The notes beneath the pieces are model-generated. The model had not been told where the DNA came from and made no database searches. It saw nothing but the letters and a program-made list of their open reading frames with translations. From NCBI GenBank assembly GCA_025201365.1, contig JAIXMF010000174.1:1-26801 (forward strand): a DNA stretch of 26,801 bases, written 5' to 3'. The position numbers and the translations under genes were made by a program. Shown here in pieces: positions 1-22,586 of this stretch (positions are counted from its first letter, which is position 1; each line of letters starts with the position of its first letter). Source of the stretch: Syncephalis plumigaleata (lineage: Eukaryota; Zoopagomycota; Zoopagomycetes; Zoopagales; Piptocephalidaceae).

Positions 1-1191
1 GTCAATCTCTCCCATGGAGCCATCATGTCCTTCAATGTCCAACTCCATACTAGTATCTTCTACACCGGTACTACTGACATCAAGTTTATGCATGGCTGGT
101 GCTATATCCTCTTGTTTAGCATCATCGTCGTCATCGTCACGACCGGCTGTAACCTTGCTACCGATGAAATGGCTATACAATTCCGTTTGCGTAATAAGAA
201 AGTTAAGTTTACGCGCTTGACGTTTCGCTTCCCTTTCTTCCTCTTCTTGGCGTAATTTTTCCAATGCTGCCTTTTCCGCCTTGCGTCGTTGTTCACGCTC
301 TTCCTTTTCGTTTCTCTTCCAAAACAGCAACATCTATCATTATAAATGCATTTCATCATTAGTGACACATGCTTTAATCAACATTAATCATTTGGCTTAC
401 CTCACGCATGGATCGACGAGCACGCACCGGTAGATCGCGCGTCAATCTTGCTCGAGTCACGGAACGACGTGCTTCACGATGACACGCAATGACTAGCTTC
501 TTACAATTACTCTGTCTCATCGCAGTCGATTGTACCATTAATCGATGTGCCTAATCAGAGCATCTGTTAGTATCGAGTCTTAGTCATTTGCTTGACATAT
601 TATTTAGCTGATTAGTTTACCTTAGGAATTTGACTATGACAAATTACGCGCCATATATGCTGACGCTGTAGCTCAAATTCATCTTCAGGCGACTGACATT
701 GTGCCATGCTCAATTGCTCTTCCGTCAACATATGCGTATCAGCGTAGGACGGATGATGAACGTTAAACTGATTCGTCGCTTGACCATTCTGCAGTTGTAT
801 GGCACGTCTTCGCTCTTCCTCGAGTTGTACTCGTTTCTTTAACGCGTGTCGTACAGCAATACGTTTCTCCAGTCTAGCTAGATACTTGGCATGCATAGAC
901 TGTTTCAATGCCTATTCGATAATAAGAGCGATAAAAGCGTGTTAGCTACCTTCAGTCCAATTGAGTGAATCTTATCGCTCCAATAATAAATACCTGATAG
1001 CGCGTTTCCTCTTCCACCTCCACTTCATGATGTCGTTGTTGCAGTCGTTTTGCATAGCGTGCCAGATGATCGCTCTTGTACTCTTTCACTGGTAGATCAT
1101 TGTGAAGTAACGATGAGATACCGTTAGTCAATGATTGCTTACGCTTCTCCGGAGGTAAACCGGACGACGGTATTGAATCTAAAGACGTCAT
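1..1191 (-). CDS. INO80: INO80 chromatin-remodelling ATPase, partial (N-terminal part with DBINO domain)
   Basis: Catalytic subunit of the nuclear INO80 nucleosome-remodelling complex; only the part before the Snf2 ATPase lies here and the gene continues beyond base 1. Exons on the minus strand are 1191-994, 911-624, 550-401 and 333-1, all joined in phase 0 by GT-AG introns, giving 323 residues. The last exon reads [16 protein letters not shown], the hallmark of the DBINO (DNA-binding INO80) domain, preceded by the usual charged helix ([20 protein letters not shown]) and followed by an acidic run of six Asp. Exons 2-3 carry the basic region leading into DBINO. The start is uncertain: ATG at 1191 is the first in-frame Met, but the frame stays open to a good acceptor (pyrimidine tract then CAG) at about 1251, so a further 5' exon may exist. 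Upstream lies a MITE. Identity is firm from DBINO; the N-terminus is weak. Confidence 0.92.
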
Positions 1192-1971
1192 TGACCGGTG
1201 GCTATATGAATACTCGTGAATCTGGTCAGTATCGTGCAATGTCACGATATTAAATCTGAATTTAAAGGGAAAAGAAAGGAAATGATAATAATAATAATAA
1301 TACAGGTTTATTCCAACCGATTAACATTGTTAGCCTTTAACTTTTATTTGTATTAATTACAGTTGTTTTTCCATCCAATTTGCGCATTTATCCTTTAACG
1401 TTTGCAGTTTATTAATAAATAGATTAACACAATTGTTAACACCATTATCACATTGCTATTATTATTGAGTAGTTGTTATGGCACTAGCAGTTGAGGGAGA
1501 TGTTAATGATCGCGATATCATATATTACAACTAGTGTTAGCTATTATTTATTCGTAAAGACAAAAGGCTAACTGCGCAAATTGGATGGAAAAAGCCTGTA
1601 GATTTCATCACATTGCAGTTGGAATGCAGCCATTGTGATATTTGAAGCGTAAAAAATAAACCCCCTTCTAATTAGCATACTATCATTTGTATATCATTAG
1701 ATAGAGAGGAATAGGCTTTACTATAATGAGTAATATGGATAAAACTGGTTGTTTATATGAAGTAATGGACAAAAGCGCAATAGGTTGGATAACATTCCGG
1801 GAGTAGCAGTTGTATGCATAGCTAGATGTCTAAAGGAATGGTCTTCAAGTGTGCTTTTGTCAAATAATTCAGAATACTTGCTTTTGTAAATTCTATGTGT
1901 GCACCATGTGTATTCGTAAACTGCTGAAGCTGTTGTTGCATAAGGCATAGATATGAGCGCAATACGATTTC
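1192..1971. other. Intergenic region between INO80 and the secreted kinase
   Basis: No convincing gene. It contains a pyrimidine-tract splice acceptor on the minus strand at about 1251, an (ATA)n run at about 1285-1303, the MITE described separately, and 373 bp between the MITE and the kinase stop codon. An open frame on the minus strand at 1721-1948 (75 codons) resembles nothing I recognise and probably lies in the kinase 3' region. Confidence 0.6.
1360..1598. mobile_element. Tc1/mariner-type MITE with TA target-site duplication
   Basis: A 239-bp non-coding element begins CAG and ends CTG and is flanked by TA on both sides (1358-1359 and 1599-1600). Its termini are inverted copies: 1366-1386 is the exact reverse complement of 1573-1593 (21 bp, core CCATCCAATTTGCGCA), preceded by CAGTTG on one side and CAGGC on the other. 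The similarity weakens inward for about another 10 bp (TTTATCCTTT versus GTTAGCCTTT). CAG...CTG ends plus a TA duplication are the pattern of Tc1/mariner/pogo elements. There is no transposase frame inside, so it would be non-autonomous. It sits just upstream of the INO80 5' end. A fragment resembling the inner terminus (GTTAGCCTTT) also occurs just outside at about 1329. Confidence 0.85.
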
Positions 1972-3310
1972 TTATTGGGATCCCAATGTGCCACTAGATG
2001 CAATGGGTACATTCCGTTGATTGTTGTTCCGCGATCCAGATCCTAATCTAATAGATCTTATACCTTCAGTAATTGTTTCTAATTGGGTGGATGTTCCCGA
2101 TGACATGGTTGGTTGCATTCTAGGTGATGAATTAGCTCCATTGATGATAGCTAAGCACTCGCTGGCGGATGGTCGTTTTGCAGGATCTGGCGTTAGCATA
2201 GCTTTGAGAGCTTTGACCAACGAACTCATTCCCGCTTGTTGATTTTGTGCTTTAGTAAAAACGAAATTTGTATCTGGAATTCCATAATCAAGTGTGTTAT
2301 AAATGTTAAGAGCAAGTTGAGTTTCACTCCTAGCATTAAATAGGAACGATTTCTTTAACAAGTGATAAAGTGTAATACCAGCTGCCCAGACGTCTTTCTT
2401 AGTAGGGTTTGCTTCCTGTTCGGCATAAACTTCTGGTGCTACATAATACGGGCTTCCTACAGGTCTGTTGGTCGGGACAATATTTTTGCCATTATAACGT
2501 ATTCTTTCTGAAATATCAAAGTCAATGATTGTGGCTCTTGGCTTGCTTTTGTCATTGGTATATGGGAATGAAATAACAACGTTCTGCAGCTTGATATCGT
2601 GGTGGACCAGTTGAGCATTATGCAAGTAAATAATTCCACTCAAGATATCAGTAATGAGCAGGCGTATCAGTGGGATGTTGTCCGACGATATACTGCGAAG
2701 GTAGGCATCTAGATCAATATCGCCATCGTATGAGTATACGAAACAATAATTATTCCCATATTCAAAATGCGTATAAGCACGGGAAACATTGGTATAGCCA
2801 ACTTGATTGTTGCTTCCCGGTCGAGCATCGGCCTTTTGAAGGATCTAGATAGAAAAGCAAAAAAGAAACATGATTAGTATGTGCATACAATAAATGTCAA
2901 GTATCTTACCGAGAATGCTTCCCTTTCCTTGGCTATTTCTGCCTCTCGATCAGATGCTGTTCCCCCGAATGGTTGCTGAGTTAAACATTTTATAAATGCT
3001 GCTGATTCTCCATATTTTCCATATGCAAGCGCAATATCTTTAGCATCATTGCCTCCAATTGTTTTGATAAGTGCAACTCCGTGTTGAGTAAAGTGGCGTT
3101 GTATACTTGTAATCTGTGCTCCCAGGAAGATATTGGATCGGATGTTACCTAATCAACTGCTACGTTAATATACGCACATCACAACATAATGACTGAATAC
3201 ATACCTCGCTTGATTTCAGACGCTATCGGACTTGCTAGTATAGTGGGCACGCTTAGGATAAGAGTAATTGCCTTCAAGGCAACAAGAAACGTAGCTGCCG
3301 ACTTGAGCAT
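1972..3310 (-). CDS. Secreted/secretory-pathway protein kinase with DFD in place of DFG
   Basis: Three exons (3310-3205, 3148-2910, 2844-1972; phases 1 and 0; GT-AG introns of 56 and 65 nt) encode 405 residues. Residues 1-27 form a clear signal peptide (short basic start, hydrophobic core, cleavage likely near LAS-PI). The kinase fold follows: Gly-rich segment YGKYGESAAF with Lys at about 89 (AFIKC), Glu-rich helix C (EIAKEREAF), catalytic loop HHDIKLQN at about 196-203 with Asp and Lys present, DFD at 223-225 where DFG is usual, and VAPE at about 250-253, then DVWAAG. The C-terminus from about residue 350 is Ser/Gly/Asn-rich. All residues needed for catalysis look present, so activity is plausible. 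A second, more degenerate relative with the same layout lies at 6776-8073 on the other strand. Substrate is unknown. An extracellular role is inferred only from the signal peptide; retention in the ER or Golgi is possible. Confidence 0.85.
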
Positions 3311-3819
3311 GATTTAATCGATCGTAAAAATGCAGATGAAGTGTAAGATGTCGAAAATTATACCGACTCGCAGCAATGCATCTAACAGCGCATGCTTAAA
3401 TAGCTTGCAGCAATGGCAAATGCTCCATCTTTTCTGTTCATTCGTCTTCCATATGCCACCGCAAGTTTACTTACCACGACGGTCCTCATGTAAGTGGTGT
3501 GTCTAATTTATTGAGCTTTCCAATTTAGTAATCACCATGATGTTATTTACTTGATTAAGGGAGAAGGTGGTGTGGCTTTAAAAACCTATTTTGTTTCTTC
3601 TTGAGTTCCCTAAGAAATTCCTGTATTGAATGAGAACTACCTCGGTACTGGTGTTATCATTCCAACAAACAGATCATCGAATGCTAACCAGCCATCATGC
3701 GCTGCCATGTTAAATAAACCCAGATGATGGCATTTACTTTTGTATATTGACACAACAACAGCTGTATTATTATTATAAATATACGAATGAAATAATGCTC
3801 GAATACATTGCTTTGCTTA
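3311..3819. other. Intergenic, no gene seen
   Basis: 509 bp between the start of the secreted kinase and the stop of the acyltransferase remnant, so it holds the kinase promoter and 5' UTR. Small open frames at 3684-3884 and 3747-3947 overlap the remnant's 3' end on alternative frames and lack family resemblance. No repeats or RNA gene recognised. Confidence 0.5.
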
Positions 3820-4223
3820 TTACAACGACTCAGGCCCATCACAAGCATCCAGTAGCATCTTTTGGAATGCTGTATAAATGCCATCTGCCATTACACGTGC
3901 TTGGTCCGGATACACGGGCAAGTCATCCGCGATGGTTCCTATTCTAACATCGCCATTATACGAGGCGATAGCAATACCGGTTGATCCTTCAAACAGTGCG
4001 GGCGGGTATAGGATACACAAGATGATACAATGCTTTTCAGCACCATTAGCAAAATAGAGCTCTCTCGGTGAACCAGGTACATTTGTGAGAATACCATGAG
4101 AGTTGTCCATGTAATGGTTTAAGCTATAATAAAGTAGATCAATTAGTATTGTATTATTATCATAATTTATCACGTATATCACTTACAATTTGTCTAAGAA
4201 GACTTGTGGCGCTTTGTTTGCAC
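3820..4223 (-). pseudogene. WS/DGAT-type acyltransferase, C-terminal remnant
   Basis: The minus-strand frame 4123-3820 reads HGILTNVPGSPRELYFANG, then GIAIASYNGDVRIGTIADD, matching the C-terminal domain (WS_DGAT_C, DUF1298) of wax ester synthase/diacylglycerol acyltransferases, which make neutral lipids. A preceding exon at 4223-4187 joins in frame through a GT-AG intron (4186-4124). Upstream, one frame meets a TGA within about 35 nt and another can be carried only about 40 nt further through a weak splice (donor near 4299) before a stop. No HHxxxDG catalytic motif or condensation-like N-terminal domain is found in the 2.5 kb upstream. About 115 residues remain of a protein normally over 400, so I call it a relic, or a fragment captured next to the kinase genes. 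The domain assignment is good; pseudogene status is inferred. Confidence 0.7.
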
Positions 4224-4991
4224 CTATTGATTCTGTTGTTGTAAGCGTGGTTCATAGGCTAGTCTGTGAATCGGTTTCAAGTTCTACCAGACGAGACACC
4301 TCCCACAAACAAATAGGCCTTATCCTTTCTTCGCGGTCTTTTATCGATAAGTTATGAACACACATATATACTTATGTATAATCGTCGTTATTGTGCCACC
4401 TCTTGTTGATAAGGGCAGCTCGTTCGTGAATGTGGACATGACAATCTATTTTCTTTTTTTTGCGGCTTGTCATCCCCATACTTTTCCGTACGATGTCTTA
4501 AACCCTTAATGTCATCACATGCATTATTGCTCTATTGTTTTCCATTATTAAACCCTTGCTCGTCTTGCGTGACGTTATAGTGTCTTGCTAAATCAAACGA
4601 ACAAGTACTCCATGTCATAATTGATGTTATGTTTATATGATTCGGTCAAGTTATAATATATTAAATACCCAGCATGTCTTTGTTCCAGATATCACTAGAT
4701 CATTAAATGTATATTTATTTATAAACTCATGCTTGCATGTAAGGAGAGTAAACCAGATATTAGATGTAAGTAAAGATTAATAAGGCTAAATCATTAATAA
4801 TAATTAAATAGATTGTTTATTAATAAACGTGTAGAATTTTGTAATTGAATGTTAACAAATCTATTGCCTTTTATTAATGCCATTCTTTATGATTTCACCT
4901 TACCCTTACCCTTCCCTTATTTTTTATTAACAAATAATGGCAATGCATAACACCAAGGACAATAAGACAATTTGAATGAAATTATTAATAC

Positions 4992-5374
4992 ATCTTTATT
5001 CACTAATTCTACTGCCCATTCCTCTACTATTCTACGCATTCCTACTGGAAAGCTGTCGTCACTCTACGGTATAATCCACAGCCCCTTAAAGCAAGTATCA
5101 CTAACCACATTGCAGTCGTTAGCGCACTCTGGGCAATCCACCGTACACGAATGGCGAGTATATATGGCGACAAGCCAACTGATCATACAACATCTTTCAT
5201 ACATGGCAATCCATACTTAAAGATATTATATACGCTAAACGCCGTACGGCAATTGTGCAATCCTCTCTTCAATCCTTCCATCAAAACTGGCAATGGCTAT
5301 TATTAACATTAAATTTTGTTATCTTTATTCACAATAATCAATAAACACTTTTCGCACACTATTCTACGCATTCC
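4992..5374. repeat. Duplicated two-word module (copies at 4992-5042 and 5321-5374)
   Basis: ATCTTTATTCAC followed about 22-25 nt later by ACTATTCTACGCATTCC occurs twice, at 4992-5042 and at 5321-5374, about 330 bp apart in direct orientation. The words are exact; the spacers differ. It looks like an old local duplication or two copies of a dispersed repeat. Confidence 0.6.
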
Positions 5375-5850
5375 ACTATACTCTTCTTGCTCTGCTCTAC
5401 CTGTCTGTACTATTCGATGTAATTGCTTGTTTACCATCACCATACTCATACCACTCCATTCCTACTATCTCTTCTTTTCTCAGTTGGTCTACTCGTCCAC
5501 TACTCTATTCATACACTCGTATCTTTATTGTTTATTTGTAATCTACACGGTAAGTGGTGTATACACGGTATTCACTCTATTCACTAGTTGCTGCTGCTGC
5601 TCTTTCTTGTCGTGTCAACTCTGTTTATTTGTTTATTTGTTTGTATTCTATAAGCATATGTGCTCATTCACTCTATTCACTCTTACTACTATCTATACTA
5701 CTTGTCCTTCTGCTTCTATTCTCATTCAGCCAATAAACACCATATCAACTTCATACATATCGCTGTATTCTCTACACTCTATTGAACATACTCTGCTTTC
5801 AACCAATACAACTAGCTAGCTACTACTACTACTGCTATTCCTATCATTCT
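5316..5850. repeat. Pyrimidine-rich, strand-asymmetric low-complexity tract
   Basis: The plus strand is dominated by C and T with irregular recurrences of CTCTATTCACT, CTACTACT and TTTGTTTATTTG. One frame stays open for 167 codons but encodes only Ser/Thr/Leu/Phe/Tyr/Cys-rich low-complexity sequence, as expected from composition. I regard it as a simple repeat expansion, not a gene. Confidence 0.6.
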
Positions 5851-6283
5851 TATTCAGTTATCAGCAGTATGCAATCAACTAGAATATATCACTCATCCAC
5901 TCACTGATTATGCATTAATATCAATGGATGGATATTTGCCTGTAGTCATTGTAATGAATTGTATACCAAATCATCGAACAACACAATAGATACCGATCAT
6001 CTGACGTGATCGTGCATGCATTGACATGGATACACTATTACTACCTAATACTTGAATCACGAACTATAACTGAATGACAGCATGGCTTACAAGTAGAAAC
6101 AATGGTTTAATGGTCATTGCCGTCATAGTTGGAGTGTATTCAATGACTTGTCTATTATCTCGTATGCTCTAATGTTAGCTAGTTGCATACCAATGCATCA
6201 TGTAGATTGAGCTATTGTTGGAACTAAATCGAATTCCATTCCATTTCAATATCAAGCATACACGTTTCAATTGCAGCTGAATT

Positions 6284-6640
6284 CAATACACTATTCCGGA
6301 TTTCGTTCACGTTAGCCGCAATATAATCAGGACCCTAATAGTATTCAATATCTATTATGGCCTTTATCCATGCTGGTTTGCAATAAAGTCAGTACCCTAA
6401 TGTCGTTCAATGTCTATAATTAGCGGCTACACATGGCGAACGATTCCATGGCTCGTTTATTTGATACTTCGTTTGAAAGACATTCCAATACACTATTCTG
6501 TATTCATTCATGTTAGTTGTAACAGAATCACAGCTGTAAATGAGTACCCTAATGCCATTCGATATCTATCATTCGAAATTACACATGGCGAACGGTTTCA
6601 TGGTTCGTTTATTTGCTATAACGTTTGAAACACTTCAATA
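6284..6640. repeat. Diverged tandem repeats upstream of the kinase-like gene
   Basis: CAATACACTATTC recurs at 6284 and 6485 (with a looser match near 6628), ACCCTAAT at about 6332, 6394 and 6546, and a 15-nt word ACACATGGCGAACG followed by CATGG(C/T)TCGTTTATTTG occurs at about 6430 and 6582. Together these suggest two to three diverged copies of a unit of roughly 150-200 bp, ending about 140 bp before the kinase-like start codon. Confidence 0.65.
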
Positions 6641-6775
6641 CCGCAAACATTGACTACTCACCTATAAATGAGCAGCCATTTGCCGTGAACAAGTCAATAG
6701 CTCACTATCATCTTCTCATTTACACGCACAATACAAGCGCCTTCACTTCTTTACTCTTAGACTATAGCGAACAAT

Positions 6776-8073
6776 ATGCGGATAACTCTACATTCTGCAT
6801 TGACTATTAGCACTTGTGCTTTAGCACTGTTATCCCAGCTACAGAGTGCTCACTCATATTTTGGTGGTGTTTTCAAAGAAGGCAAGCTATGCATATGTGA
6901 TCTATCCGATGTCTACTAACTTGTTTATAGGGAACTTTCCTATAACCACTTTTGCCCAGAAATATGTCGAAGCAAACAAGGATACGCTTGAACTATCGAA
7001 TATACGCTGGGGCGGAGGTCGTGGAGAGCTTAGGCTAGCTCGTGTAATTTGGAAACAGAAAGATGCCTTTATGAAATGTGATAAAGTACCTGACAATCCA
7101 CATCAATCCCATATAATCAATGAAGTAAAAGCATTCAACGTAAGTGTATCGATCTATTACTCAAATAGCCTACTTATCATACAACATAAAAACAGGCATT
7201 GATGACTGCAAAGAATAGTTTGACAAACGACTACGCAATAGGTCGAGAAAATGTCATGGATCCCTTGCATCGATTTGCCTTTACTGAGAACGGTCCGGCG
7301 GATATTAACTTGGCCGATCCCAAGCAGATGTACGTATGTCATCTTTACAGCTTCATTGGGGGAGTGATCCTAGAAGATTACATCAAAGCAAGCACCAATG
7401 CCCAGGCATATATTGCTGCTGCCAAAATACTACCTGATATTATAAAAGGTAAGCATCATGATAATTATTTGTATAACATATTTATTAAATGCTTTGTAGG
7501 TTTGATGTATCTTTACAATGCCGGTATTCTCTATAAAGATAAACTTATACATAGTAAGTAAAAATTTATTGTCATGAGACATGCTAACAATGGAATATAG
7601 ATGTTATGCTACAGCTAGATTCAGGTCGCAATGTAGTTGGTGCAAAGATCATTGATCTGGATGTAACAGAAGTATTTAAAAAGGAAGATGGTTGGCAACC
7701 TATAAACCTGAATGATCAAGAGCATTTATCGCTAAATCCACGCCAAAGATACAACAGCTGTGAGAAGTCTACGTTTGTGATGATAAGGTGCTTGAATATG
7801 GTTGTTGACTTCAGTAGTTGGAGTCCTTTTGGGAATGGCAATGTACTTTACGATTCAGCCGCTGTAAGCCATTTAAACCAATTTATCAAAATACTAGATT
7901 ATTATGATATAAGAAAGAAACCAGCAGGTGATTTAATGTCACTACCATCTGATGTAAGGCCAGCCCTTCCTGAAATGCTTCGCCTTGTACGAATGTTGTA
8001 CACATTAGACAAGGATCCATTCGCTTGCACATCTCCTATACGCGCATTAAGAGGACTACCACCACGCACTTAA
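6776..8073 (+). CDS. Secreted kinase-like protein, partly degenerate (probable pseudokinase)
   Basis: Five exons: 6776-6863 (or donor 3 nt later), 6931-7139, 7196-7448, 7500-7553, 7601-8073; about 358 residues. The first exon encodes a signal peptide (MRITLHSALTISTCALALL, cleavage near QSA-HS). A perfect TACTAAC branch site and TTTATAG acceptor at 6930 support the first intron. The protein aligns with the kinase at 1972-3310: AFMKC (Lys about 78) against AFIKC, DIIKGLMYLYNAG against DILSGIIYLHNAQ, catalytic loop YKDKLIHN against HHDIKLQN, and IIDLD against IIDFD. The catalytic Asp (about 197), Asn (202) and metal-binding Asp (220) survive, but the HRD His and the catalytic-loop Lys are changed and no APE or activation-segment motif is recognisable, so catalysis is doubtful. 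No frame break is seen, so it looks like a maintained gene rather than a dead one. Function unknown. Confidence 0.8.
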
Positions 8074-8513
8074 TAGTTATAATCGATACACTATTAGTGT
8101 ACGGTAAGTACCGAGCAATAACTGATTCATTCTACTAAAATGCTAATCTGTCATTGAATCAATTAGCAATCATATAGACAATGAGAATGTGATGACGCTC
8201 ACACAGCATGACCATACAACTACTGCTATCGCTGTATGATCTAATGATTTTATCATCAATAAAGCGTATTCACTATTTCATTATGGGTGCTATCAACATC
8301 AATACAGTGAAGCATTTTGTAGACGGTATGAGGACACTATCAGATCTAAAAATATATTCAAAACAGCCTTTACCTTCTTCTCTTCCAAGCCACTTCTCCT
8401 CGTTGGTTTTTCTTTTGCCATTTAAGAACTTTTTTCTACACTTTGACACTTTCTTGTACCAGAAATTACTACTTATGTAAGCTTCCTCCAACTGAGATCT
8501 CTCCTCAGACACA
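8074..8513. other. Intergenic / possible 5' flank of the LINE-type element
   Basis: 440 bp. No gene. From about 8340 the plus strand becomes pyrimidine-rich (TTCTTCTCTTCC) up to the ORF1 start and may be the element's own 5' UTR. I could not find a matching target duplication at the far end of the element. Confidence 0.4.
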
Positions 8514-9588
8514 ATGTACGCCGAGCGGACAAGAAGAGGCACGAACGTGGCGACCGCGACCTCTTCGCCCCAGTCTACTCGTCCTAGACGGCCTTCCCTA
8601 CGGTTACATTCTAAGAGTGTTTTATCATCCCGGATAGCAGATTCTTCAGCCAACCGCCCAGTCTCTCGTAACCCAAACGTACTTTACTTTAACTTCAGTG
8701 GAATTGATATTGAGGAATATGAAATTGTTGAACTCCTATATAAGCAATACCCAGAAGCCTGTAAGCTTTTTCCAACTCACCGTAAAGGGTTCTATGAACT
8801 CACTTTCGAACCGGGCATAGATGTGGAACAAGTCGCTAAACGAGACCTCACCTACAAAAATCATTCAATACCAGTATCAACCACCTTCAAACCACTGGAA
8901 AACTCTTTATTAGTAACTTTGATAAACATTCCAGTTTTAAGCGAGGAACCCTTAGCAAACCTGCTGGAAACAGAACTACTCAAATATGGTGAACTTCTAG
9001 ACTTACGCCTTACGTATTACCCCAATACTACCTTTCTCTCTCCAAAAGCATTGGCTTTCTACGACCTATCCGAGTCTCCGGAAGTAGCTAATAAGCTCCC
9101 AAAATCCATCATATTCGATACGATATCCAGCTCACCAATGTACCTCAGCTGGAAAGGTGCCCCACCACAATGTTCGAACTGCAAGGCAATGGACCACATT
9201 CGAGCCAAATGCCCAAAACTACATCCACACTCAACGTAACAGTTACGAAGGCAGCTATGCTCCCGACAGAATTACAACCACAAGAACTTTGTCATCCTCC
9301 TCCAAGCCAAACATCTCCGAGGATTCCAGTTCCTCAAAGACCACATCTAAAGTACCCACCACCTCTACCCTTAAATCGCAAGCTTCCCAGACGCCAAATT
9401 CTCAAGCAACGACTTCTACCGCTCCTGAACAAGCCACCTCCCAATCTCAGCCCCAGAGACGGCGCAGAAATAGGATGAGAAGGAGAAGAAAATCATCACA
9501 AACAACAAATCCACCGAGCGATCCATGGTGGCAACGCCAGCTAGAAGATCAATACGAATACAGGTTAAGTCTATTGCTAAATAACTGA
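8514..9588 (+). mobile_element. LINE-type retrotransposon ORF1 (CCHC zinc-knuckle protein), solitary and frameshifted
   Basis: 8514-9239 encodes 241 residues: a basic Arg/Ser/Thr-rich start, a central domain like the RNA-binding part of non-LTR ORF1 proteins of early-diverging fungi (LLVTLINIPV, LLKYGELLDLRL, YLSWKGAPP), then one zinc knuckle C-x2-C-x4-H-x4-C at residues 220-233 and CPKL. It stops at TAA 9237-9239. The next frame (+1) is open from 9157 to 9588 and encodes a Ser/Thr-rich linker and a strongly basic Arg tail, which looks like the proper C-terminus, so the copy has a frameshift between about 9216 and 9237. No ORF2 (endonuclease/reverse transcriptase) follows; 130 bp later the next gene ends. 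GC content by eye is higher than its surroundings, especially at 8510-8600. It is a truncated LINE or a stranded ORF1. No long poly(A) tail is visible. Confidence 0.75.
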
Positions 9589-20600: not shown

Positions 20601-22586
20601 ATCATATAATGTCATTCATTACATTAAACAATCAATCATTCCTCATTCCTACTTACTGATATACGTATTTGGCCACTGTATCTTTGATATCCACACTGCC
20701 ATCCCATTTCGGAACACAATCATCCGGCTCCATGATATTGAAACCGCTTGCACCATTAGCATCGTACTGATTCTCCATTAGATTGTCATGGGCTGCATAA
20801 TCATAAGGTGCCGCTATAGATTGTGCAGGTGATCTATGACTCATATTACTCATAGTATCAGGAGGAGCAGTAACAACTTCGTTATAATGACGTGTTGGTG
20901 GTGGTCTATCATTACGTGGATACTCGTTGTATGGAGGACTCATTGAACGTGGTGGTTCTGCTTGATGATAATGATTACGTGATCCTACATTCGATGTTGC
21001 GTAAGTATCATTATGATCATACGACGATTGATCTCGTTCGTATTGTCTATCATAACCAGGTCTTTGTCTAGTGGATGGATGTGAATACTCATTTCTTGGT
21101 TCAAATGTAGATGGTGGTGGTGGTGGTGGTTGATGTCGCCGAGATAATGGTGCAGCAGATGTATTTGACATTGTATTACGTTCTAATCTACGTAGACCAC
21201 GACGTTCTGTTGGTAATGATGCCACTGGTGGTGAATGATCAGGTAATCCCCTAGATGTTATATTACTAGTTGTCGTGTTCATCATATTAGGTTGACGTGT
21301 CGTGTAAGATGATGAAGATTCATAAGATGGATTTATTGGCACTTGTTGATCAATAGGCGATGGTGATCTTTGATATACACGCTGTACTGGTTGGTGACGT
21401 ACAGGTTCCCTTTGTTGATCAATAGGCGATGGTGATCTTTGATATACACGCTGTACTGGTTGGTGTCGTACTGGTTCTCTTGGTTGATCATTATAACCAC
21501 TATCACTATAAGTGTTATTGTTATAGTTATCTCTATAACTATGATGTTGCTCTGATGGATGTGGATGATGTTGATGATGTTGATGTTGATGAGTAATATG
21601 TTCACTACTATAATTGCCATTACCATTATTGTATCCATTATTACTTCTCATATCAGAAGCCTCATAATAGGAACGATTATGAGGTGCAAGTCTTCTAGAT
21701 GATGGTTCCACTGGATACTCGGGTTCATTATCATCCATATTAGGTACTGCTTGATAAGTGTCACCATATCCATTATCATCATTATCGTAGTATTGTTGTT
21801 GATGTTGATGATGATGTTGTGGATGTTGATGTGGATGATTACTATAGGAATGATTATTAGTTATCTAATATTGTATATAATGTATTTGAATTACCTTGCT
21901 TTAGATGACATATCGTATCTATACGATTGATTCTCTGGTCTATCCTGAGTGACTACTTCATTAATGCGTGTATTCAATTTATCAAATTGATTCTTTAAAT
22001 CATCTATACCATCATCACATTTATGAATTGAAGATGGCAGTATTGGTGGAGATGGTGGCTGTTGCGGTGGCTGTGGATCTTTCCATGATGATGCTCTATC
22101 CTCCATGAATGGTTCCACTGTATTCGTAACAGCTGGTGTGTCACCCCATGGTGTACTAATTACATCTTTACTAACAGGACCCCAACCTGCATCTGCCACA
22201 TCCTCCTTGACTTGACCCCAGCCTGTCTCTACCGGTGAACTAGGTTGATTATAAGGATGACTACCCCAATCAGATGGTATATCCGATGATGGTAGTGGTT
22301 GATCATTGCCATCTGGATAATCTACATGATTAATCATTGTTATATTTTATAATAGAATAGAATATTGTTATAAGCAGTCATATATATATATATATATATA
22401 TACTGTAATTGACTTACCACTAGGTGACATATAGTTATTGCCTTTAGGCTGATTACGACCTCCACCACCACCTCCTCCTCCTCTTCCACGACGACGTCCA
22501 TTATTGTTATTGTTATTGTTGTGGTTATTACCTTTCATCGGTGTCGTATAACGACCTTTATTCGGTCGTGCTAATTGACTACTCAT
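17671..22586 (-). CDS. UPF1-like superfamily 1B helicase (SMUBP-2/Hcs1-like), with four frame breaks near the 3' end
   Basis: Twelve exons: 22586-22418, 22321-21895, 21841-20657, 20598-20218, 20159-19924, 19849-19641, 19562-19539, 19462-19369, 19295-19092, 19028-18901, 18844-18649, 18556-17671; about 1380 residues. The first about 570 residues are disordered (Asn and Gly runs, RGRGG, His/Gln-rich, repeated SPSPIDQQ). A SMUBP-2-like beta-barrel region follows ([23 protein letters not shown]). Helicase motifs: Q motif LNHSQLSAV; motif I PPGTGKTT (870-877), encoded alone on a 24-nt exon; NVAVDNL; motif [12 protein letters not shown] (about 1029); [31 protein letters not shown]. It would unwind RNA or DNA 5'-3'; the substrate is not readable. 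In exon 12 the frame changes near 18425, 18355, 18110 and 17793, each equal to one lost base; a 61-nt intron (donor 18404, weak) could replace the first two. C-terminus [13 protein letters not shown] to TAG at 17671. Confidence 0.88.
21343..21480 (-). repeat. 69-bp in-frame tandem duplication in the helicase N-terminal region
   Basis: Two nearly identical copies (21343-21411 and 21412-21480) encode twice a 23-residue unit containing [18 protein letters not shown]. Few differences between copies point to a recent event. It lies in the disordered N-terminal part, about residues 319-365, so the fold is not affected. Confidence 0.9.
22381..22402. repeat. (TA)11 microsatellite in the first helicase intron
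   Basis: Eleven TA units starting 16 nt inside the first intron (minus-strand gene, donor at 22417). Confidence 0.9.

Follow-up and report, generated by a model that had tools for sequence, protein, structure and literature searches.

Two branches of a predicted secreted kinase-like family in the fungus Syncephalis plumigaleata

Conventional protein kinases that are made for export are, to our knowledge, rare. FAM20C is reportedly a kinase-fold protein of the secretory pathway that has a pseudokinase relative, FAM20A. Here we describe two kinase-like genes, designated A and B, on a stretch of 26,801 nucleotides from the fungus Syncephalis plumigaleata (GenBank assembly GCA_025201365.1, contig JAIXMF010000174.1; the whole stretch is hereafter called the window and is contig C84 of a genome assembly of 32.6 Mb in 383 contigs). 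Each gene opens with a signal-peptide exon, and each has numerous paralogues in the same genome. We favour, with a probability of roughly one half, the reading that A and B represent two branches of a single family of secreted kinase-like proteins that has expanded in this lineage and whose likeliest use is on the proteins of another organism. Should these proteins act outside the cell, phosphorylation would be a candidate language between the organism and its partner; if the reading is true, the fast-changing exons of A would mark the surfaces that meet the target.

The ROP kinases of Toxoplasma gondii form a paralogous and polymorphic family in which, according to the part of the published account used here, many members are under diversifying selection and most are predicted pseudokinases (PMC3635977). 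A and B may be likened to them in being paralogous and predicted secreted kinases with complete and altered members and gene clusters, and in the diversifying selection that acts on many ROP kinases (PMC3635977). ROP kinases, however, belong to a protist and are injected from rhoptries, and the excess of amino-acid change described below is found in A and not in B. The comparison was made by organisation only, and the resemblance would be one of organisation and working rather than of family membership. Among fungi, the FunK1 kinases (Pkinase_fungal, PF17667) represent an expansion that carries Ser at the position of the catalytic Lys, and the part of that study used here predicts none of them to be secreted (PMC3203195). 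A and B have in common with FunK1 the lineage-specific expansion in a fungus and weak profile matches over the C-lobe (PMC3203195), but A carries the Lys (17 of 17 models), B carries other residues without a single Ser (0 of 26), and signal peptides are present here. In Batrachochytrium salamandrivorans (Bsal), likewise a fungus, the protein-kinase domain is the one most enriched among species-specific genes, and the part of the paper used here does not call these kinases secreted (PMC5364385). No IFT57 match was found in the present genome by a search run without a eukaryotic control, a weak argument against a flagellated fungus. With FAM20C/FAM20A the two genes would share a secretory-pathway kinase fold and an altered relative; they differ in that no Fam20-type Pfam match was found at E up to 0.1 among 10 B and 5 A members, that A is a conventional PF00069 kinase, and that the pairing is not conserved. 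Among the matches listed by our searches of an open-access collection, to which most subscription papers do not belong, none was seen to describe fungi with an expanded family of secreted kinases.

Gene structure, signal peptides and family size

Gene models were made by spliced protein-to-DNA alignment with our own script, and their splice sites are supported by comparison among paralogues. Gene A lies on the minus strand (3310-1972), comprises three exons (3310-3205, 3148-2910 and 2844-1972) and encodes 405 amino acids; gene B lies on the plus strand (6776-8073), comprises five exons (6776-6866, 6931-7139, 7196-7448, 7500-7553 and 7601-8073) and encodes 359 amino acids, and the introns of both genes measure 47-65 bases. 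The first exon of A encodes the predicted signal peptide MLKSAATFLVALKAITLILSVPTILASP and averages 94% DNA identity among 12 A genes; the second covers the N-lobe with an IGGND loop, the AFIKC motif (Lys89) and Glu110, and the third the remaining kinase (HHDIKLQN, IIDFD, APE, DVW; PF00069 at 2.9e-31) and a Ser/Asn-rich tail. In B, the first exon encodes the predicted signal peptide MRITLHSALTISTCALALLSQLQSAHS and is one of 50 genomic copies. The second contributes a WGGG loop, the AFMKC motif (Lys79) and Glu95, the third the middle of the kinase with a conserved Cys148 (strand beta5 assigned by motif), the fourth carries an altered catalytic loop (YKDKLIH) at its end, and the fifth supplies the catalytic-loop Asn, IIDLD and the C-lobe. 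Most modelled close paralogues repeat the exon layout and the signal-peptide exon of A or B, and because both recur in this way neither is a product of chance. The initial annotation, made from the letters of the window, had described a divergent pair on opposite strands with start codons 3.5 kb apart, signal-peptide-like first exons, and the shared motif pairs AFIKC/AFMKC, DILSG/DIIKG and IIDFD/IIDLD. The spliced models bear out the arrangement, all the motif pairs are found in A and B, and the first exons are upheld by the rule described next and by their recurrence among paralogues.

Signal peptides were scored with our own hydrophobicity-plus-cleavage rule, which is passed by 40 of 40 scored N-termini (22 B loci, 16 A loci and the two window genes) and by 26 of 292 background ATG readings (8/109, 3/13 and 15/170). 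Not counted are L041, L054 and L063, three B models that lack a start Met, L026, which is a fragment, and the distant loci L027-L034; of the latter, L029, L032 and L034 satisfy the rule when read from one Met or another. Beyond residue 30, two of the 41 models contain a 19-residue segment with a mean hydropathy of at least 1.6, and the exon chains of these two are odd; the peak mean is 1.58 in the A protein and 1.19 in the B protein of the window. Entry into the secretory pathway is to be expected because each gene has its own signal-peptide exon, and exit from the cell is most likely because A and B lack a KDEL-type tail and show no second segment that would clearly span a membrane; both families are accordingly predicted to be exported.

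Family A counts 14 close loci including that in the window, the other 13 at 66-89% amino-acid identity, and three more distant relatives at 36-38%. Searched at E up to 1, the B signal-peptide exon was found in 50 copies spread over 31 contigs, of which the weakest match (0.035) has a stop, and a B kinase exon lies at most 1.5 kb downstream on the same strand in 50 of 50. From the kinase side, 60 of 124 B kinase-exon matches were used in the placement check, and three of these 60 (C1:249888, C57:374239 and C113:53014) have no listed signal-peptide exon ahead of them. All family counts are lower bounds of places and include haplotype-like duplicate contigs such as C84 and C351, so the distinct genes are fewer than counted. 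Numerous paralogues equipped with signal-peptide-like exons, as the initial annotation had envisaged, are thus what the 14 close A loci, the 50 B signal-peptide exons and the 40 N-termini provide.

The same annotation had also suggested that A and B may be an active/inactive partner pair. A is found beside B only in the window and in its counterpart on C351, where the nearest B lies 3.9 kb and 3.2 kb away, respectively. For eight of the 12 other close A loci, all on C112, any B signal-peptide exon is more than 250 kb away; the remaining four (C341, C358 twice, C371) are located on contigs of 42-50 kb without a B exon, where a B past the contig end is possible, and two of them sit less than 4 kb from a contig end. 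Because most other A loci have no nearby B, a conserved kinase-pseudokinase pair is not supported, and A and B are, on their genomic distribution, branches of large families rather than conserved partners.

Kinase fold, catalytic residues and amino-acid change

Gene A scores 108.7 bits against the Pkinase profile PF00069, above the curated cut-off of 31.7, and gene B scores 24.2 bits, below it. Pkinase is matched at E up to 0.1 by 10 of 10 aligned B members (best 1.7e-10), with additional weak matches to Kdo, APH, EcKL or RIO1 in three of them. The A and B family profiles align over 161 columns with a probability of 99.3%; a profile of five A members retrieves Ser/Thr kinases in the PDB (best 2.4e-17), and the B profile retrieves PDB kinases (best 3.2e-8). 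A kinase fold common to A and B, as first suggested from the shared motifs, is supported by the profile-profile alignment and the Pkinase matches. FunK1 (PF17667) scores 15.9 bits with A and 19.0 bits with B of the window, below its cut-off of 24.1, and is matched weakly at E up to 0.1 by 5 of 5 A members (best 9.9e-7) and 10 of 10 B members (best 1.6e-5). Genome-wide, nine of 12 PF17667 matches exceed the cut-off, three of them at close A loci, where the margin is small and the match covers the C-lobe; the cut-off is likewise exceeded in 2 of 14 control prokaryotes.

Residues were counted in 17 A models and 26 B models. In A, the ATP-binding Lys, the His, Asp, Lys and Asn, the DFG Asp and the APE and DxW residues are kept in all 17 and the helix-C Glu in 16, and the third DFG residue is Asp throughout. 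Gene A of the window holds the full catalytic set (Lys, Glu, HxD, Lys, Asn, DFG Asp), in agreement with the initial annotation. B keeps the ATP Lys and the DFG Asp in 26/26 models, the Glu and the Asn in 25/26 and the catalytic Asp in 24/26. Its catalytic-loop Lys is present in none, being replaced by Leu (7), Tyr (5), Phe (5), Ala (4), His (3), Ile (1) or Asp (1), and the catalytic-loop His is His in 17, Tyr in eight including the window gene, and a gap in one. With a catalytic loop reading YKDKLIHN, gene B of the window has indeed lost both the HRD His and the Lys, as had been claimed; the label 'inactive' that came with this claim is not established by the losses, the absence of the Lys being family-wide and the ATP Lys, Asp, Asn and DFG Asp being mostly kept. 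Since phosphotransferases of the aminoglycoside/choline kinase type, which have a kinase fold, work without a catalytic-loop Lys, B may be atypical rather than dead.

Two Cys residues recur in both families. One directly follows the ATP Lys in 17/17 A and 26/26 B models, and a second lies in beta5 in 16/17 and 24/26, respectively. Ten other kinase loci were examined for the Lys motif, which is unreadable in four (L007, L036, L037, L038); the six readable ones (L001, L003, L004, L005, L006, L008) have no Cys after the Lys. By the usual geometry of kinases the two N-lobe Cys presumably face each other on neighbouring strands as a cross-strand disulfide, and their conservation would fit a protein whose folding takes place under oxidising conditions. 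All 13 of the 13 close A models examined retain the sequon NVS.

Sequence divergence in A was measured in 12 of the 14 close loci (66 pairs), omitting L019 (stop) and L022 (truncated). Codon positions 1+2 differ by 0.161, fourfold sites by 0.095, introns by 0.047 and 140 bases of 5' flank by 0.057; positions 1+2 thus differ 3.4 times as much as introns, and more than these in 64 of 66 pairs. Counted by columns, 246 of 644 are variable at positions 1+2 compared to 15/84 in introns (p 1.1e-4), 23/139 in the 5' flank (p 2.8e-7) and 13/58 at fourfold sites (p 0.011). Fourfold sites exceed introns in 51 of 66 pairs, a difference that is not significant by columns (p 0.32), and a codon-path estimate that had placed synonymous sites about fourfold above introns was dropped in favour of these clean fourfold sites. 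The strongest stretch, residues 28-115, which takes in exon 2, has a pooled dN/dS of 1.11 over the 66 pairs by the codon-path method, and the whole mature protein has 0.74 by the same, less trusted method. Between gene A of the window and that of C351, 41 of 351 codons differ with a change of amino acid and 17 synonymously. Taken as a whole, the pattern suggests that the A protein is under diversifying selection.

Possible use on another organism and alternative explanations

In the reading that we favour, the signal-peptide exon of each gene would send the kinase into the secretory pathway and most likely out of the cell. A would be a conventional, probably active kinase that acts by phosphorylation and whose protein is driven to change, and B the larger branch, with an altered loop and its nucleotide-binding residues kept, which may work either through atypical catalysis or by binding. 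By analogy with the injected kinases and pseudokinases of Toxoplasma, the likeliest targets would be proteins of another organism, be it host, prey or competitor. More tentatively, and with some doubt, we consider that a fungal arsenal of secreted kinases and altered kinases, with more than 60 copies in the assembly and delivered to another organism, might have arisen independently of apicomplexans; signal peptide, promoter and 3' flank would then make up a conserved cassette that encloses a kinase body of faster change, and inverted repeats would promote its spread and shuffling.

Several points weigh against use on another organism or loosen its support. That the families are associated with another organism is a guess, and no relative was found in viral contigs. 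The signal-peptide rule was set after the sequences had been seen, the 40 scored N-termini represent only about three independent families, and two of five distant loci (L027, L030) fail the rule. The 66 A pairs are not mutually independent. Exon 3 of gene A alone, folded without an alignment, gave a model with a pLDDT of 33.7. In B, where 19 genes were compared (18 of 25 modelled loci and the window gene; 171 pairs), amino-acid change is not in excess over introns, with 0.290 at positions 1+2, 0.294 at fourfold sites, 0.258 in introns and 0.136 in the 5' flank, and no excess appears in two gene subsets (p 0.52 and 0.55); pooled dN/dS of mature B is 0.70, and one of seven stretches exceeds 1 (residues 300-345, 1.16).

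Signal peptides, the conserved Cys residues and sequon and the complete catalytic set of A would also suit a luminal housekeeping role, in which A and B act in the Golgi or the cell wall on the fungus's own secreted proteins, comparable to FAM20C in animals. The 50 B signal-peptide exons, a catalytic Lys that is missing from each of the 26 B models, the fast amino-acid change in A and the lack of a Fam20-type match among the 15 members scanned make such a role unlikely. It is distinctly unlikely, too, that the genes are passengers with little function of their own, multiplied by a flanking repeat: conserved flanks, dispersed copies, long inverted repeats, kinase-less cassettes with an identical junction on C373 and C46, copies with stops and a B family free of excess amino-acid change all point that way, yet catalytic residues and signal peptides are kept, mature B stays below a dN/dS of 1, and the pattern in A is not neutral.

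The diversification of A and the preponderance of amino-acid-changing over synonymous codons between the window and C351, could also be expected of molecules of self/non-self or mating recognition that are diversified between strains. We give this little credence, as a kinase fold is unusual for such a role and no mating or incompatibility gene was found among the eight window ORFs scanned. Very improbable, finally, is an active kinase with a dedicated pseudokinase activator after the manner of FAM20C/FAM20A; the adjacency of A and B in the window and on C351 and the missing His and Lys of B in the window are what this account can draw on, against copy numbers that differ widely between A and B, eight of 14 A loci without a B within 250 kb and four more without a B on their short contigs.

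Repeated cassettes and neighbouring sequence

A DNA search of the genome with window positions 1-8000 places B in a dispersed repeated unit. Its conserved 5' flank spans 5358-6640 on the plus strand, of which 5814-6640 is 81-95% identical in 39 other best-scored places, and copy comparison places a conserved 3' flank at 8067-8279, also on the plus strand. Among the 19 B genes mean identity is 0.76-0.86 over most of the 5' flank and 0.90 in the first 150 bases 3' of the gene, compared to 0.64 in the main part of exon 5. An insertion of about 315 bases (5043-5357) distinguishes the B 5' region in the window from other copies, and its sequence recurs on C112 and C358. The repeated A unit (1671-4780, minus strand) is 84-94% identical at other loci and tandem in places, its copies spanning different parts.

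On C112, L071 is a unit of 5.1 kb bounded by inverted repeats of 1.38 kb that are 97% identical; in L074 on C353 these outer flanks enclose a middle that is inverted, L075 on C271 likewise has long inverted repeats, and L052, L055 and L067 have short inverted-repeat stretches. The inverted-repeat block is matched in at least 40 places (the best 40 of 203 candidates were scored). Because the repeats are about 1.38 kb long at 97-99% identity, a mistake in the assembly may account for the cassette being flipped between C112 and C353. On C373 and C46 the cassette flanks are joined without a kinase at an identical junction, and several copies carry stops. A classical transposon with terminal inverted repeats is not supported, there being no fixed ends and the 3' limits being staggered at several points. 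A cursory look for target-site duplications at two copies gave a 5-base match of chance length at L077 and none at L076. With staggered 3' limits and no convincing target-site duplication in these two copies, the B cassettes look like the product of dispersed duplication rather than of a fixed-end transposon. Close to the kinase-less cassette on C46, L077 contains on the minus strand an open frame of 502 residues that has a hydrophobic segment close to its probable start and that we take to resemble a secreted PLC-X-type phosphodiesterase.

Five of eight scanned window ORFs have a Pfam hit with E up to 0.01 (DBINO of the INO80 type, RRM/CCCH, AAA_12, a weak Dus and a WS/DGAT fragment), and the window is a eukaryotic nuclear contig. 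The WS/DGAT C-terminal domain fragment (PF06974, 9.9e-7) at 3823-4182 on the minus strand falls within the repeated A unit and is probably a gene remnant carried along. Just 3' of gene A, the counterpart on C351 has about 15 kb of extra sequence (C351:392546-408104 versus window 1766-2128), and a pair of 31-base inverted repeats lies at 1366-1396 and 1563-1593 in surroundings that recur in the genome. Located 3' of gene B, the ORF at 8496-9239 (plus strand) has a zinc-knuckle-like Cys motif, no Pfam hit within the same E limit and, judged by eye, the look of a retroelement remnant. A telomere repeat was seen on C316 only, and the genome yielded no ITS primer site. At 21343-21493, overlapping direct repeats of 82 bases with 94% identity occur in a Pro/Gln-rich open frame.

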